A stretch of DNA of 64,000 nt from an uncultured Christensenellaceae bacterium (GTDB lineage: Bacteria; Bacillota; Clostridia; Christensenellales; UMGS416): positions 62,001-126,000 of the forward strand of contig CALWDW010000033.1 of the NCBI GenBank assembly GCA_944376795.1. The letters run 5' to 3'. How positions within the stretch are numbered: the stretch's first letter is position 1; every line of letters starts with the position of its first letter. The notes beneath the pieces are model-generated. The model was not told where the DNA came from and did not search any database. It was given only the letters and a program-made list of their open reading frames with translations. Positions 31,320 through 38,467 of the stretch are shown one piece after another. Both the position numbers and the translations under genes were made by a program.

Positions 31320-32345
31320 CTAGAGGTCTCTGCGCAGCTTCAGTATCGTGACGTTGATTTCTCCATCTCGCGCGTCGCTTGAACCATTGTAGTTGAGATA
31401 AAACTGCGTTTGGGCAGGGGCTCTCAGGATAAGAAAGGCTGATCCACAGGCGCTGGATCCATTTGCGCTGGTCGCAAAATAGATACCGGTCTCCAGATGC
31501 GATGTGCCGTTATATACGGGGGTTACCTGCATGTAATTGGGGGATTGAAAAACGGCCGATACCTTATAGGAGATGAGATAATATCCCGGCTCAAGTGTAA
31601 TTCGCTCCAGGCTTGCCTGCACAATATTTCCTGTAGGGTCCGTAATATCGGGAAACAGCGCAATAGAGGTTCCCATCGTCAGTGGATACTGCGTATTGAT
31701 GAATGAAGCAAAGACATCATCCGGGATTGCACCCGTAGCCCCTGTGGCACCCGTAGCTCCTGTGGCTCCTGTAGCTCCCGTTGGGCCCGTCATCCCTGTG
31801 GATCCAGTCGCACCGGAAACGCCCGTGGCACCCGTTGGCCCGGTCGCTCCGGTTGAACCCGTTGCACCGCGTGGACCGGCAGCGCCAACAGCGCCGGTCG
31901 CTCCTGTGGGCCCGGTTGCACCTGTCAATCCTGCTATCCCGGTCGCCCCTGCAGGCCCGGTCGCACCCGTAGCACCTGTCGGCCCGGTCGCACCCGTAGC
32001 ACCTGTCGCACCTGTCGGTCCTGCGGTGCCAGTAGGCCCTATAGGCCCCGCGGCGCCCGTAACGCCTTTGTCTCCAGAGGGACCGGCAGCACCTGTGGCG
32101 CCGGTAGGCCCCGTCGGTCCGGTTGCCCCGGTGACCCCCGGGATTCCCGTGGCACCGGTTCCACCCGTCGGCCCGGTCGCACCCGTAGCACCCGTCGGCC
32201 CGGTCGCACCCGTGGCGCCGGGGATGCCATCCGCTCCTGTAGCTCCTGTGGGTCCAGACAAACCGGTAGCACCTGTCGGGCCTGTAGGTCCTACAGATGA
32301 GGCCCGAGAGGCATAACAGGCACATACATAGCGAAGCAAATTCAT
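31320..32345 (-). CDS. Collagen-like GXT-repeat surface protein
   Basis: A 341-residue protein. A short Cys-containing N-terminus (about 18 residues) leads into 62 uninterrupted Gly-X-Y triplets, mostly GAT and GPT, then a globular C-terminal domain of about 135 residues ([14 protein letters not shown] to [11 protein letters not shown]) that looks like the jelly-roll trimerisation domain found in BclA-type exosporium glycoproteins. The Thr-rich triplets are typical sites of glycosylation. An exosporium or other surface filament is likely. The ATG has GGATGGGG upstream; a TTG start 13 codons earlier is also possible. Confidence 0.88.
31730..32290 (-). repeat. Collagen triplet repeat tract
   Basis: A 9-base periodic, GC-rich repeat coding for Gly-X-Thr/Ala triplets. 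It is translated and not a CRISPR or satellite. Length probably varies between strains by slippage or recombination. Confidence 0.85.
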
Positions 32346-32508
32346 ATTACCCCATCCATGACAACAGTGTTCATAGTCAGCCAATGTCCATCCCCGCTTT
32401 CGTCGTATTCCCTATAACATATATATGCAAAACTATCCATGCCGTGCTTTGATCAAACATCATACCGCAGGCTATTAGTGTTTGCCTGAGTCATAAAACA
32501 CTGAAAAT

Positions 32509-32579: not shown

Positions 32580-32948
32580 CTATTTCTTCCTAACGTTCCG
32601 CGTAGCCACCACATTGGTATCTGTTCCCGCTACGTGAGGAATGATTACATCGCCCACATGGACAGGAGCGCAAACCTTGCAGCGCTTGAGGGCCTGCAGC
32701 ACCTCGGGGATTTTTGCCTTAGAAACGCTTCCTTGGGTTCGTACCGAAACAAGAGGCAGATCTCCCCCCTCTACCCAAACTGATGAGGTTACCGTGCGCT
32801 GCGGATCCACGAATTCATCTCGACCATATCGGGCTCCACGTTTGCAGGTATTTCCGCGCACAACGATCTCTCCATCCTCTGCCTGCGAAACAGTGAGACG
32901 GCAGCCCACCGGACAAACCGTACAGACAAACTCCTTTTGGCTGACCAT
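32580..32948 (-). CDS. DUF1667 protein, Cys-rich accessory of GlpA/GlpB-type flavoproteins
   Basis: A 122-residue protein with an N-terminal CTVCPVGC and a CKRG motif, the cysteine layout of DUF1667, likely binding an iron-sulfur cluster or zinc. In Firmicutes this family is found after flavoprotein subunits related to anaerobic glycerol-3-phosphate dehydrogenase, as here, and is thought to be a redox or assembly subunit. It starts 3 bases after the upstream gene stop and ends the operon. Biochemical role is not established to my knowledge. Confidence 0.88.
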   Translation of the reverse strand: MVSQKEFVCTVCPVGCRLTVSQAEDGEIVVRGNTCKRGARYGRDEFVDPQRTVTSSVWVEGGDLPLVSVRTQGSVSKAKIPEVLQALKRCKVCAPVHVGDVIIPHVAGTDTNVVATRNVRKK

Positions 32949-32951
32949 TTT

Positions 32952-34211
32952 CTATCCTCCTATAACGCTCACGGTAATCGTCCCCGCAATGTCTTGCAGT
33001 TTTTCTGCAGGAAGCGTCACTTTTTCCATTTCCCCTGGTGTCATGACGGACTTCTTCTTTTGCAGAAGCGTCTTGTCCCCTGCCTGGATGGTAAGAGTGG
33101 CCGGCTTAAAGACACCGCGGGTCCGCAGATAAATGTCCACATCTTCGTCCCCGGGAACAATGCGCTGCGGAACCGTGTAGGAAACTCCAGAGCCATTTTG
33201 GACGGAAACCGTTATTCCTTCGGGCTTGCGGTCCTGCATTATATAGTCAGCTGCAGCAATCCCCGCCGTTTGGGCCTCCATGCTAACATTGTCAACCAGA
33301 TCATGCACATGAAGCACATTTCCACAGGCAAAAATCCCCTCTACGCTGCACTGCCTATGTTGATCTACCATAGCGCCCTTCGTCCGAGAATCCATTTGAA
33401 TCCCTGCGGCCTCGGTGAGCTCATTCTCTGGCAAAAGTCCCACAGATAGCAACAGGGTATCGCAGGGAATGTATTCAAAGGTAGATGGAATGGGCTTACG
33501 ATCCCCGTCAACCCGTGCGATCGTCACTCCTTCCACCCTGCTCTTCCCGTGGATCTGCACCACAGTATGCTCAAAGCGGAGAGGAATGTCGTTGTCCTCC
33601 AAGCATTGCACAATATTGCGCGTCAAGCCACTGGAATAGGGCATCAGCTCGCAAACCAATTTTACCTTGGCTCCTTCCCAAGTTAGGCGCCGCGCCATAA
33701 TGAGTCCTATGTCGCCCGATCCCAGTATAACAATCTCCTTACCCGGCATATAGCCTTCCATATTGACAAGGCGCTGGGCACAGCCGGCAGTGTAAACCCC
33801 CGCGGGTCGGGTTCCCGGAATATTCAACGCCCCTCTCGTGCGCTCCCGGCAGCCCATGGCGAGGATAATGGCTTTCCCCGAGAGAACCATGAGCCCATCC
33901 TGAGCATTGACAGCCACAACTTCTCGCTGATTTGTGATCTCCAAAACCATGGTATCGGTCTTGCAGACAATGGAACTATCCTGCACACGGTCAATAAAGC
34001 GCTGCGCGTATTCAGGACCTGTCAGTTCCTCGCCGAAAAGGTGCAGGCCAAAACCATGATGAATGCATTGCTGCAGAATGCCTCCGAGCTGGCGGTCTCG
34101 CTCCAGGATCACGATATTCTCCTGGGGAATACCTCTCTCGCTGCAGGCTAAGGCTGCGGCCAGCCCAGCCGGTCCGCCTCCTACCACGATGACGTCCCAT
34201 TCCTTACGCAT
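32952..34211 (-). CDS. NAD(P)/FAD-dependent oxidoreductase, GlpB-like partner
   Basis: A 419-residue flavoprotein. The N-terminal FAD-binding GGGPAGLAAALACSE and the second Rossmann motif ILGSGDIGLIMARRL (NAD(P)) fit the pyridine nucleotide-disulfide oxidoreductase superfamily; a further signature is NVSMEAQTAG near the C-terminus. The start is the ATG after GGAGGATCAGACGC, overlapping the GlpA-like stop by 8 bases. With the upstream GlpA-like and downstream DUF1667 genes it forms the common three-gene dehydrogenase set. It may pass electrons from glycerol-3-phosphate oxidation to NAD(P). Confidence 0.85.
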   Translation of the reverse strand: MRKEWDVIVVGGGPAGLAAALACSERGIPQENIVILERDRQLGGILQQCIHHGFGLHLFGEELTGPEYAQRFIDRVQDSSIVCKTDTMVLEITNQREVVAVNAQDGLMVLSGKAIILAMGCRERTRGALNIPGTRPAGVYTAGCAQRLVNMEGYMPGKEIVILGSGDIGLIMARRLTWEGAKVKLVCELMPYSSGLTRNIVQCLEDNDIPLRFEHTVVQIHGKSRVEGVTIARVDGDRKPIPSTFEYIPCDTLLLSVGLLPENELTEAAGIQMDSRTKGAMVDQHRQCSVEGIFACGNVLHVHDLVDNVSMEAQTAGIAAADYIMQDRKPEGITVSVQNGSGVSYTVPQRIVPGDEDVDIYLRTRGVFKPATLTIQAGDKTLLQKKKSVMTPGEMEKVTLPAEKLQDIAGTITVSVIGG

Positions 34212-35679
34212 GCGTCTGATCCTCCCCGTTCCTTCCGTCTTCTTTAATCTTTCCGCAGACCATCCAGGACCCTTTGCCAAACTTCGTGACCTCCTGGAGA
34301 TCCATCCCCGTTTCCCGCGCCAGAATCTCCATCACGCGGGGAGAACAGAATCCTCCTTGGCATCGTCCCATGCCAGCGCGTGTCCTCCGCTTAATTGCAT
34401 CAATGGAGCGGGCTGGTACCGGACTATGAATCGCAGCGACAATTTCAGCCTCTGTAACGGTTTCACAACGGCAGATAATCCTTCCATACAGAGGATTATG
34501 GGCAATTGCTTCCGCCTTTTCTTTGCGATTCATGTGACGGAAGGGCTTGGTATGCTCGCGATGCGGCGAAAAGTCCGGTCGTTCACGGAGAGGCAGTCCC
34601 CCATCTCGTAAAAGATCCCGAACATACAAAGCGATAGCCGGCGCAGAGCTCAGGCCCGGAGAACAAATCCCCGCGACATTGACGAAGTTCTCTACCGTAC
34701 CTGAGCGTTCAATCAAGAAATCATGCTTCTCCTTCAACACTGCACGGATTCCGGAGAAGGATGTAATGACATTATAAAGATGCAAGTCGGGCACCGAAAG
34801 CCGAGCACAGCGGGTCAGCGCATCCATACCGCTTTGGGTGGTAGAAGTATCTTCTCGATCCTGCATATCCAGGGCCGTAGGGCCGGCAAATACATTGCCG
34901 TCAACCGTAGGGCTTACCAGCACGCCCTTGCCCATGGCCGTCGGCGGCTGGAAAATGACAGTAGAAACAACGGTACCCTCTTTACGATCAAGGAGCATAT
35001 ACTCTCCCTTCCTGGGACAAATTGTAAAAGGCGCGCCGCCTGCCAAAGCGTTGATGCAGTCAGCGTAGACTCCCGCCGCATTGATAACCCAGGAAGCGGA
35101 TATTTTTCTTCCATCAGCTGCGGAGATTTGCCACGCGTCCTTGTCTCGCTGCAGGGAACGCACCTCAAAGTCTGTCAGGATGGACACGCCGTTGACAGCT
35201 GCGTTCTCACACAGGGCAATGGTTAATTCATAAGGACAGGTAATGGCCGCAGAGGGCGCCCAAAGAACACTCTGAACCTCTGGACTTAGGTGTGGCTCCC
35301 GTTCTCTTGCCCAGTCCCCCGTCTGAATTGACATATCCGGCACGCCGTTTTGTATACCTTGCTGATAGAGTTTCTCCAGATGCACTTCGTCTTCCGGAGA
35401 AAACGCCAACACCATTGATCCAATGGGTTTGTAGGGCACTTGAAGTTCTGCGCAGAGACTCGCCATCATAGCGTTTCCTTGAACGTTGAAGCGAGCCATG
35501 AATGTACCGGGATCACAGTCATACCCCGCATGAACAATAGCACTGTTGGCCTTGGATGCGCCCGAAGCAACATCACTCCCTTTTTCAACGACAGCGATGG
35601 CAAGCTGATATCGGGATAACTCCCGAGCAATGGCGGCGCCAGAAACGCCTGCGCCGATAATGACTACGTCGTACTGCAT
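34204..35679 (-). CDS. FAD-dependent oxidoreductase, GlpA-like with C-terminal BFD [2Fe-2S] domain
   Basis: A 491-residue flavoprotein of the DAO/GlpA family. FAD motif IIGAGVSGAAIARELS at the N-terminus, conserved KANSAIVHAGYDCDPG around 49-64, and a C-terminal bacterioferredoxin-like (2Fe-2S) domain with four Cys (CRCE, then CQGGFC). The likely reaction is oxidation of sn-glycerol-3-phosphate to dihydroxyacetone phosphate. The gene follows glpP and a terminator, so expression is expected to depend on GlpP. Related L-2-hydroxyglutarate oxidases share this fold and are an alternative. Confidence 0.85.
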   Translation of the reverse strand: MQYDVVIIGAGVSGAAIARELSRYQLAIAVVEKGSDVASGASKANSAIVHAGYDCDPGTFMARFNVQGNAMMASLCAELQVPYKPIGSMVLAFSPEDEVHLEKLYQQGIQNGVPDMSIQTGDWAREREPHLSPEVQSVLWAPSAAITCPYELTIALCENAAVNGVSILTDFEVRSLQRDKDAWQISAADGRKISASWVINAAGVYADCINALAGGAPFTICPRKGEYMLLDRKEGTVVSTVIFQPPTAMGKGVLVSPTVDGNVFAGPTALDMQDREDTSTTQSGMDALTRCARLSVPDLHLYNVITSFSGIRAVLKEKHDFLIERSGTVENFVNVAGICSPGLSSAPAIALYVRDLLRDGGLPLRERPDFSPHREHTKPFRHMNRKEKAEAIAHNPLYGRIICRCETVTEAEIVAAIHSPVPARSIDAIKRRTRAGMGRCQGGFCSPRVMEILARETGMDLQEVTKFGKGSWMVCGKIKEDGRNGEDQTHA

Positions 35680-35806
35680 ACTTTGATCTTCCTCCGCAAA
35701 AGTCTCTTCCCACAACCAATGCAAAAAAAGCACGCTAAAAACACCTCTTGCAAAAGGCTGTTTTGCGGCTCTCCTTTCTCTGCCGAACTATTTGGTTACA
35801 AAAAAG

Positions 35807-35851
35807 TATACCACCTGTCCTCCATTCCCGTCAATGGACGCAGGTGGTATA
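35807..35851 (-). terminator. Leader terminator between glpP and the GlpA-like gene, probable GlpP target
   Basis: An 11-bp outer stem (TATACCACCTG) and a 6-bp inner stem, followed on the minus strand by CTTTTTTG. It lies about 125 bases before the GlpA-like start. As an intrinsic terminator the call is firm. That GlpP bound to glycerol-3-phosphate overrides it is inferred from the B. subtilis glpD/glpF leaders and the adjacent gene. Confidence 0.75.
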
Positions 35852-35894
35852 TTTGTACAGTATTTCTAGGCAATTTGCCGGGTGCCATACGGCG

Positions 35895-36497
35895 TTAAAG
35901 GTTCCAGAGAGCCTCTTGGCTGGTAGAGACAGCCAACGCTCCAGCGGCAAGGGCGCGCATGGCTTCCCGCTTCTCGGTAATCATTCCCCCGGCAATCACC
36001 GGGCGCCGAGATTCACAAGAGAACTGGGAAATGGCTTTATCCAGCAGGCCGGGCATAAGCTCAACCATGTCAGGCCGCGCTTCCGAAACCAGGGCAATGC
36101 CGCTAGCCAAAGAGGCGGAATCCAAGAGGAACATTCTCTGTACGGTACACAGCCCTTCTTCGGCAGCCGTCCGCAGGAGGCTGGTGCGTGTGGATATCAT
36201 GCCATCAGCATGCCATACCCGGGAAAGGAAGCGTACACCCGCTGCATCCCGGCCAATCCCCTCTACCAGATCAATGTGGAGAAAGATTTTCTTTCCGCCT
36301 TGCCGCAGCATATCCATCATGTTGGGCAACGTAAGAATGTCCCCACCCAGAATAAACGCAACGCCCACCGGAGAGGCTGCGGCTTTTTCGGCCGCTCGCA
36401 GGTTTTTTACTGCCGCAATGATGGGATTTGTCTCCAAAATGGCCCTGTACTCACGCAGCGTACCCATGTGATCAGGCTGTTTCCACTGCAGCAGCAT
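35895..36497 (-). CDS. glpP: Glycerol-3-phosphate-responsive antiterminator GlpP
   Basis: A 200-residue TIM-barrel RNA-binding antiterminator. Typical segments: NPIIAAVKN, FLHIDLVEGIGRD, GMISTRTSLLRTA, QRMFLLDS, DMVELMPG and VIAGGMITEKRE. In B. subtilis GlpP binds the glpD leader RNA with glycerol-3-phosphate and prevents termination. The start is ambiguous: the ATG here (GTGGGGGCTCCAGG upstream, overlapping the acyl-CoA ligase by 26 bases) or MGTLREY 10 codons later, which matches known N-termini. It is downstream of a T-box-controlled gene, so its level may follow that signal. Confidence 0.93.
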   Translation of the reverse strand: MLLQWKQPDHMGTLREYRAILETNPIIAAVKNLRAAEKAAASPVGVAFILGGDILTLPNMMDMLRQGGKKIFLHIDLVEGIGRDAAGVRFLSRVWHADGMISTRTSLLRTAAEEGLCTVQRMFLLDSASLASGIALVSEARPDMVELMPGLLDKAISQFSCESRRPVIAGGMITEKREAMRALAAGALAVSTSQEALWNL

Positions 36498-38136
36498 CCT
36501 GGAGCCCCCACTGCTCCACGGCCATGGTGCGCATCTTATACTTCTGAATCTTGCCGCTGGCCGTCATGGGGAAGGAATCCATGAACCAAACATAGCGCGG
36601 AGCCTTGAAGCGCGAGAGTTTTTCCTTGGTGTACTGAATCAGCTCCTCAGCTGTTACACTTTCCCCTTCCTTCAGGATAACGCAGGCCATGACCTCTTCT
36701 CCGTACTTAATGTCCGGCACTCCTATAACCTGGACATCCTTGACGCTGGGATGGGTATAGAGGAATTCCTCCAGTTCCCGCGGGTAGATATTCTCGCCGC
36801 CCCGAATGATCATATCCTTCAGCCGGCCCGTTATCTTGAAGTAGCCGTTCTTGTCCATGGTGCCCAGGTCCCCGCTGTGCAGCCATCCATTCTCGTCAAT
36901 GGCAGCGCGGGTCGCTTCCGGCATCTTATAATACCCCTTCATTACGCAATAACCACGAATCACGATCTCTCCTACCGTATCGTAAGGCATATCGGCACCC
37001 GTTTCGGGGTCGACAATCTTGACTTCCGTGTGGGGAAGCGTGCGACCGACTGTGTTCACCCGGGCTTCTAGGGGATCGTCCGTGGTGGTCTGGGTAACAA
37101 CAGGCGAGGACTCAGTTTGCCCGTAGGAGATGGTGATTTCCCGCATCCCCATCTCTTCAATCACCTGGCGCATGACTCGAATGGGACAAGGAGATCCGGC
37201 CATAATGCCCGTACGAAGCCCCGGGAAAGAGAATTCATGGAAACGCTCATGTTCCAGGATGGCAATAAACATGGTGGGCACGCCATGGAGCGCCGTACAG
37301 TGCTCATTTTGGACTGCTTCCATGACTTTAACAGGATGGTAAACCTCAACCATACACATAGAAGTCCCGTGGGTTACACAAGCCATGACGCCCAGCACGC
37401 ATCCAAAGCAATGGAAGAGCGGAACAGTAATACACAACCTATCCGCAGGTGAAAACTTCATACAGTCACCGATAAACTGGCCATTGTTGACGATATTATA
37501 ATGGGTCAGCATAACGCCCTTCGGAAATCCGGTGGTACCAGAGGTGTACTGCATATTGACAACATCGTCCGGCGTTGTAGCGGCAGTTGCCTCATCCAAA
37601 ACGCTGTCCGGAACCTGCTCGGCCAGCGTATACAGGTCGGAAAAGGCGAGCATGCCCTTTGAAGGCGTGTCTCCTGCAAAGATAACGTTTTTGAGGTATG
37701 GAAGGTTCGGATCCTCCAGTTTTCCGGGCTCACTGTCTTTAAGCGTCGGGCACAGCTCGTTGATACAATCCACATAACTGTAGCCCTTAAAGCTGTCAAT
37801 CATGACAAGCGTCGTCGAATCCGACTGCTTCAGCAAATACTCCAGCTCATAAATCTTGTAAGCTGTATTGACAGTAACCATGACCGCGCCCATGAGCGCT
37901 GTAGAAAACTGGATAATCAGCCACTCTGGCACGTTGGTAGCCCATATAGCCACATGATCTCCCTTTTTCACGCCGAGTGCCATCATGCCTCGCGCTGCTT
38001 TACGGCAGATTTCATAGAACTCCTTGAAAGTCCATCGGATTCCACAGCTAGGATAGATGATAAATTCCTGATCCGGCCGCTCGTTTACGTTCCAGAGCAA
38101 AATATCGGTAATGGTCTTATACTGCAAATCTCTCAT
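36472..38136 (-). CDS. AMP-binding acyl-CoA ligase (medium/long-chain fatty acid type)
   Basis: A 554-residue adenylate-forming enzyme of the ANL superfamily. P-loop YTSGTTGFPKGV (197-208), motif YGQTES, the hinge GRLKDMIIRGGENIYP, and the catalytic Lys in MTASGKIQK. It most resembles AMP-dependent fatty acyl-CoA ligases, activating a carboxylate through an acyl-AMP. The gene starts 30 bases after a T-box terminator and is followed by overlapping glpP. Start ATG after GGATGACCAACT. A carboxylate other than a fatty acid cannot be excluded; T-box control is unusual for this family. Confidence 0.9.
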   Translation of the reverse strand: MRDLQYKTITDILLWNVNERPDQEFIIYPSCGIRWTFKEFYEICRKAARGMMALGVKKGDHVAIWATNVPEWLIIQFSTALMGAVMVTVNTAYKIYELEYLLKQSDSTTLVMIDSFKGYSYVDCINELCPTLKDSEPGKLEDPNLPYLKNVIFAGDTPSKGMLAFSDLYTLAEQVPDSVLDEATAATTPDDVVNMQYTSGTTGFPKGVMLTHYNIVNNGQFIGDCMKFSPADRLCITVPLFHCFGCVLGVMACVTHGTSMCMVEVYHPVKVMEAVQNEHCTALHGVPTMFIAILEHERFHEFSFPGLRTGIMAGSPCPIRVMRQVIEEMGMREITISYGQTESSPVVTQTTTDDPLEARVNTVGRTLPHTEVKIVDPETGADMPYDTVGEIVIRGYCVMKGYYKMPEATRAAIDENGWLHSGDLGTMDKNGYFKITGRLKDMIIRGGENIYPRELEEFLYTHPSVKDVQVIGVPDIKYGEEVMACVILKEGESVTAEELIQYTKEKLSRFKAPRYVWFMDSFPMTASGKIQKYKMRTMAVEQWGLQDAAAVETA

Positions 38137-38167
38137 AGTTGGTCATCCTTTCAAAATATGATGAAAA

Positions 38168-38432
38168 ACAAAAGACCTTCGCCTCTTTCAGAGACGAAGG
38201 TCAAACTCCGCGGTACCACTCTGGTTAGGGCACTAGGCCCCCACCTCCTTCGGGCACATCCATGCCCTACCCCATATATCGGTGGGGAACCGGTCCAGCC
38301 TACTTGCTTCGGTGGACAGCTCAGGGGCCAGTTTCGCTGCATACACCACTGCCTCGCACCGACCGGCAGCTCTCTGGAGGTGGGGATACAACTACTTACT
38401 CCCCGTCATAGCCAAGGCTATGCAACTCATTG
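38168..38432 (-). promoter_or_regulatory. T-box riboswitch leader of the acyl-CoA ligase-glpP operon, specifier AGC (Ser)
   Basis: On the minus strand the T-box motif AGAGTGGTACCGCGG is at 38208-38222. Before it, Stem I shows the loop E AGTA, the terminal loop GGTCGGTGCGAG between CTGCC and GGCAG arms, and the 3' side AGC-GAA-ACTGG. GAA pairs across from AGTA in loop E, which makes AGC (38336-38338) the specifier, read by tRNA-Ser(GCU). The antiterminator (CAGAG with CTCTG, GCGGAG with CTTCGT, bulge TGGTACC) excludes the terminator stem 38174-38202. Uncharged tRNA would therefore switch the operon on. The bulge base U pairs better with A73 than with the G73 expected for tRNA-Ser, a caution. 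Confidence 0.88.
38174..38202 (-). terminator. T-box intrinsic terminator
   Basis: GACCTTCGTCTC arm with GAGGCGAAGGTC, loop TGAAA, followed on the minus strand by TTTTGTTTTT. Its 5' arm also contributes CTTCGT and CTCTG to the competing antiterminator. Confidence 0.92.
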
Positions 38433-38438
38433 GACCCT

Positions 38439-38467
38439 ATTGTACCAGAGACTTCCTCTCGTGTCAA
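38439..38467 (-). promoter_or_regulatory. Sigma-A promoter of the T-box leader
   Basis: Minus strand TTGACA (38462-38467), 17-bp spacer, TACAAT (38439-38444). It overlaps the end of the GH32 gene, so the T-box transcript starts at about 38432 and is separate from the GH32 message. Confidence 0.9.

Follow-up and report, generated by a model that had tools for sequence, protein, structure and literature searches.

The window, by which we mean the whole stretch of 64,000 nucleotides (64 kb) that was analysed, carries on its minus strand a gene for an AMP-binding acyl-CoA ligase, and directly ahead of this gene stands a T-box leader with a promoter of its own (Table 1). Both domains of the ligase score above their gathering thresholds (PF00501 with 322 bits, PF13193 with 71 bits), which confirms the initial annotation in its claim that a T-box here directly precedes an acyl-CoA ligase, which is not a usual target. 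The nearest NCBIfam model for the enzyme, NF009233, gives 781 bits and so falls below its cut-off of 832, and since no close homologue is to be found among solved structures (the best match reaches 253 bits), isovalerate, the substrate that we propose for the ligase, is to be regarded as putative. The gene that overlaps the 3' end of the ligase encodes a GlpP-like antiterminator responsive to glycerol-3-phosphate, which is possibly co-transcribed with the ligase; the explanation that we offer below does not require it. It belongs to a glycerol-3-phosphate cluster, directly after the ligase, that also includes a type 2 glycerol-3-phosphate oxidase with a BFD domain, an FAD oxidoreductase and a DUF1667 protein. 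A similar oxidase likewise follows the ligase at another locus (L098), and these glycerol-3-phosphate genes have no evident link to leucine. The window also holds a gene for a collagen-like protein with long Gly-X-Y repeats.

Table 1. Features at the ligase locus, with features of related loci named by locus
Feature	Positions	Strand	Basis
Acyl-CoA ligase, 554 aa, PF00501 + PF13193, proposed isovalerate-CoA ligase	36472..38136	-	profile matches
GlpP-like glycerol-3-phosphate-responsive antiterminator, overlaps ligase 3' end	35895..36497	-	PF04309, 197 bits
Glycerol-3-phosphate cluster	32580-36497	-	
Collagen-like protein	31320-32384	-	
T-box leader (RF00230), full-length match	38187..38418	-	covariance-model search
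Sigma-70-type promoter: TTGACA (38467-38462), 17-nt spacer, TACAAT (38444-38439)	38439..38467	-	sequence
AGAGAG element, distal Stem I	38370..38375	-	sequence and RF00230 alignment
Loop-E motif of the specifier loop: GAA, with AGUA as its 5' partner (within 38400-38393)	38333..38335	-	sequence and RF00230 alignment
Specifier CUG (Leu)	38329..38331	-	sequence, calibrated register, automated parse
T-box bulge UGGU, the complement of ACCA (A73 and CCA)	38215..38218	-	sequence
Antiterminator segment: AGAG (38222-38219) able to pair with CUCU (38193-38190)	38189..38222	-	sequence and RF00230 alignment
Intrinsic terminator: 13-bp stem, GAA loop, TTTTGTTTTT	38164..38202	-	fold and shuffles
tRNA-Ala(GGC) in leader	L057 5734-5808; L064 5772-5846; L073 5793-5868; L093 2790-2865		
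P-loop protein 5' of VorABG	L144 8018-8692; L146 15557-16258		

By its sequence the leader is a genuine and complete T-box of the transcriptional type, and as an RNA it is quite ordinary. It is the sole Rfam match across the window, and it aligns with the whole of model RF00230 (positions 1-219 of 219) at 104.3 bits, above the gathering score of 93 (E 5.9e-22, or 5.9e-24 when the whole genome is searched, where the same model finds 14 T-boxes). On the minus strand the distal loop of Stem I reads GGUCGGUGCGAGG, and the strand shows AGAGUGGUACCGCGG in addition to the AGUA/GAA loop-E motif and the terminator. The antiterminator and the terminator have the same CUCU in common and are thereby competing structures; the terminator, which has a T run, folds at -21.6 kcal/mol (z -5.15), and none of 200 dinucleotide shuffles is equally stable. 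A complete T-box under a consensus promoter is what the initial annotation had described, and all the elements of its anatomy are indeed present as it gave them, except that the specifier lies 3' of the GAA and not, as was supposed, 5' of it.

The end of the specifier bulge reads GAA-A-CUG-G and then enters the lower helix of Stem I, whose CCCC strand (38327-38324, next to G38328) pairs with GGGG (38404-38401), which makes the codon CUG, for leucine. At least nine other T-boxes of this genome, with known targets whose names were taken from the protein sequences, served to calibrate the register, which gives GUC before valS, ACC before thrS, UUC before pheS, UGG before trpS, UGC before cysE, AUC before ileS, CUG before leuA, AAC before an asparagine synthetase gene and AUG before a Met ABC transporter. 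The automated specifier parser misreads some frames (those of pheS and valS, and of loci L021, L143 and L147), and these we read by hand. Applied to this leader, the rule of TBDB, which starts from the end of the specifier bulge and takes the nucleotides 2-4 positions 5' of it as the codon (PMC7778990), likewise yields CUG. The neighbouring frames would specify Thr (ACU, frame -1) or Trp (UGG, frame +1); both are ruled out by the CUC of orthologous leaders, and also by the calibrated codons, which sit one nucleotide above the lower helix. The UGGU of the T-box bulge matches leucine as well, since in this genome tRNA-Leu(UAG) has the discriminator A73, followed by CCA, and tRNA-Ser(CGA) has G73. 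Three patterns for a tRNA-Leu(CAG) gene gave no match in the genome, which is 95% complete (one apparent hit was, on inspection, tRNA-Ser(CGA)), and tRNA-Leu(UAG) could read the CUG specifier by wobble. On the strength of the calibrated register, the TBDB rule, the two discriminator bases and a separate T-box found on serS itself (locus L008), leucine is strongly favoured, and serine is excluded as far as the sequence allows.

The pairing of T-box and ligase recurs well beyond this genome. Public genomes yielded 80 orthologous loci, and in about 20 of them a T-box motif stands a short way 5' of the ligase, as it does in several of 29 loci from relatives; the motif is absent in many of the delta-proteobacterial orthologues among the 80. 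About 27 orthologous ligases carry Leu T-boxes, with CUC or CUG as specifier and UGGU in every leader, as read both by hand and by script, and these orthologues, from many Clostridia, are roughly 55-66% identical. Two cultured bacteria, Ruminiclostridium hungatei and Desulfofundulus thermosubterraneus, are among the carriers of the Leu T-box ligase. Because the pair is kept across relatives, it cannot be put down to chance in a single genome. In four genomes a complete tRNA-Ala(GGC) gene is embedded in the Leu T-box leader, where it separates Stem III from the antiterminator.

In relatives, the ligase clusters with leuS, leuA-like, branched-chain aminotransferase and VOR genes. The order Leu T-box, ligase, leuS is found at five loci of the Desulfofundulus/Desulfallas type (L021, L057, L064, L073, L093), and L020, L069 and L087 have a branched-chain aminotransferase some 5 kb downstream. 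A LeuA-like gene stands directly 5' of a TIM-barrel::ligase fusion at ten relatives' loci (L115, L117-L125), and at two of these (L117, L118) the aminotransferase is directly 3' of the fusion. An association with both a 2-oxoacid:ferredoxin oxidoreductase and the branched-chain aminotransferase is seen in L144, L146, L152 and other relatives. In the L144 cluster the scores are 541 bits for the VorB-family subunit (cut-off 399) and 476 bits for the aminotransferase (cut-off 307). L144 runs Leu T-box (CUC), LeuA-like, TIM::ligase, aminotransferase, P-loop protein, VorA, VorB, VorG, HTH-cupin protein and a ligase of the second type, and L146 runs Leu T-box, LeuA-like, TIM::ligase, Ile T-box (AUC), ligase, Val T-box (GUA), ligase, P-loop protein and VorABG. 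The order in L149 and L150 is TIM::ligase, Ile T-box, ligase, Val T-box, ligase, aminotransferase, and in L147 it is TIM::ligase, ligase, Val T-box (GUA, read by hand), second ligase, aminotransferase. The P-loop protein, which is ParA/NUBPL-like and lies directly 5' of VorABG in several clusters, may serve the oxidoreductase as an iron-sulphur or assembly factor.

The LeuA-like protein has HMGL-like and LeuA_dimer domains. When it is set against solved isopropylmalate synthases, DTTLRDGEQ has become DSSLKNREK and the metal-binding HCHND has become SCSDK, and the HxH motif is missing, by eye, in all the LeuA-like homologues compared. The gene before the TIM::ligase fusion in L143-L152 encodes just such a LeuA homologue, lacking RDGxQ and HxHND with its LeuA_dimer domain intact, and in some of these loci it stands behind a Leu T-box. 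The protein is probably not an isopropylmalate synthase; that it serves as a leucine sensor is our guess.

The genome itself has a second ligase of interest, with an Ile (AUC) T-box 5' and a citramalate-synthase-like gene 3'. This ligase matches an AMP-binding protein of solved structure (PDB 3etc) at 775 bits, which we take to be an enzyme from Methanosarcina acetivorans with a preference for small branched acids, 2-methylbutyrate for instance. The 2-oxoacid oxidoreductases of the genome comprise two IorAB-like pairs, one VOR-like set and one PFOR-type protein, none of them adjacent to the ligase, and a search for Rfam T-boxes before the IorAB and VOR loci found none. The genome, of which 5% may be missing, has no match to IlvC or to the IlvD family; ilvB, leuC, leuD and leuB are clustered and leuA is also present, so that leucine may be reached here by other routes besides the ligase. 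Among the 14 genomes checked, IlvC is absent from 13, being found only in G037, and the IlvD family is absent from 10. One genome (G017) has no match to the aconitase family (LeuC) or to Iso_dh (LeuB), and the aconitase-family frames of the others, mostly of 640-780 amino acids, are read, by length only, as aconitase rather than LeuC.

How might all this work? It is established for T-boxes that the antiterminator is stabilised by uncharged tRNA. Here, when leucine runs short, uncharged tRNA-Leu would pair at two places, with the Stem I codon CUG and, by means of its NCCA end, with the UGGU in the antiterminator bulge, so that the terminator is blocked and transcription continues into the ligase gene. 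The enzyme would then turn isovalerate into isovaleryl-CoA, a substrate suggested by the regulation and the gene neighbours; a 2-oxoacid:ferredoxin oxidoreductase of VOR/IOR type would reductively carboxylate this to 2-ketoisocaproate, presumably running in that direction; and a branched-chain aminotransferase would complete the route to leucine. By the same route, the ligases behind Ile and Val T-boxes would feed 2-methylbutyrate into isoleucine and isobutyrate into valine. We assign the pathway in this way because the Leu, Ile and Val T-box ligases of relatives adjoin enzymes that would convert branched fatty acids to these amino acids. We consider it probable that a tRNA-Leu-specific, transcriptional T-box turns on this ligase at leucine shortage and so directs isovalerate, by way of isovaleryl-CoA, to leucine, with parallel ligases serving isoleucine and valine. 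Taking everything together, we also lean, with more reserve, towards a broader reading for an order of Clostridia, in which the canonical branched-chain amino-acid pathway has disappeared or been cut short and its place has been taken by the uptake of isovalerate, 2-methylbutyrate and isobutyrate, with three ligases, each under the T-box of the amino acid that it feeds, working with a VOR-type oxidoreductase and an aminotransferase, and with a LeuA homologue, bereft of its catalytic residues and keeping its leucine-binding domain, acting perhaps as leucine sensor.

The main rival, which we think unlikely, is that the ligase primes branched-chain membrane fatty acids with exogenous isovalerate (and the Ile and Val ligases with 2-methylbutyrate and isobutyrate) at times when 2-ketoisocaproate derived from leucine is scarce. 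In Staphylococcus aureus this is what MbcS does with 2-methylbutyrate and isobutyrate (PMC10026030), and MbcS is the best NCBIfam match of the Ile T-box ligase, though at 455 bits against a cut-off of 850; however, the clusters contain aminotransferase, VOR, leuS and leuA-like genes and not fatty-acid genes, and the lack of IlvC in most genomes checked makes amino-acid synthesis the more pressing need. Rather improbable, too, is a role for the ligase in leucine metabolism with some other acid, in a pathway shared with a TIM-barrel partner and an amidohydrolase. The xylose-isomerase-like TIM barrel (PF01261) is fused to the N-terminus of the ligase at L107, L108, L110-L115 and L117-L125 and is a separate neighbour gene at L018, L022, L024 and others, and amidohydrolases (PF04909) are found as neighbours, but many Leu T-box ligases have no such partner nearby, and VOR and aminotransferase suit the isovalerate route. 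We give very little credence to a relic leader, formerly serving leuS (or serS, as the initial annotation had suggested) and now left before an unrelated gene: leuS does follow the ligase in Desulfofundulus-type genomes, but a T-box with Leu specifier directly precedes the ligase in many and diverse lineages, most of them with no leuS nearby, the ligase also follows leuA-like genes, and parallel Ile and Val T-boxes stand before other acyl-CoA ligases. Hardly credible at all is the serine T-box first proposed, with induction of the ligase on serine starvation, since its AGC, directly 5' of the GAA (38338-38336), is on the wrong side of that motif and outside the codon register by both calibration and TBDB rule, the leaders of orthologues read CUC or CUG, and the UGGU mismatches the G73 of tRNA-Ser, a misfit that the initial annotation had itself suspected and that the tRNAs of this genome bear out.

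Returning to the isovalerate route, it has been known since the 1960s that rumen bacteria use branched-chain volatile fatty acids both as growth factors and as precursors of amino acids, and the T-box-ligase pair probably marks the genes of this biochemically familiar branched-acid pathway. Since the T-box specifier labels each ligase with an amino acid, anonymous annotations become testable substrate predictions (isovalerate, 2-methylbutyrate and isobutyrate). Acyl-CoA ligases are an added target class of the T-box regulon, and the findings suggest that auxotrophy calls may be mistaken in these anaerobic bacteria where they rely on the absence of ilvC or leuB. A literature search combining T-box and CoA ligase returned no paper, and acyl-CoA ligases go unmentioned in the main text of the genome-scale T-box surveys of Wels 2008 (PMC2494555) and of Sun and Rodionov 2013 (PMC3766115), so that the target class and the three-amino-acid wiring appear new within the literature compared.

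How, then, does this locus stand beside systems already known? The Leu T-boxes (RF00230) before leuS and leuA are alike in architecture, register, UGGU and transcriptional terminator, that of leuA in the same genome (L001) having the very same CUG specifier, and they differ in their target, which here is an acyl-CoA ligase. MbcS of S. aureus and 3etc of Methanosarcina are short branched-chain acyl-CoA synthetases, of which the Ile T-box ligase resembles the latter, and we know of no T-box for MbcS. The ligase behind the Leu T-box of the window falls into another ANL subfamily (nearest NF009233), and MbcS feeds membrane fatty acids (PMC10026030). Rumen bacteria make leucine from isovalerate, isoleucine from 2-methylbutyrate and valine from isobutyrate (PMC7356843), and the isovalerate carboxylation pathway of Allison and colleagues, cited in that article, has the same chemistry that we propose, from branched volatile acid to acyl-CoA, then reductive carboxylation and amination to Leu, Ile or Val. 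That pathway is known from labelling; what the present loci bring to it is candidate genes, assigned to each amino acid by the T-box specifiers.
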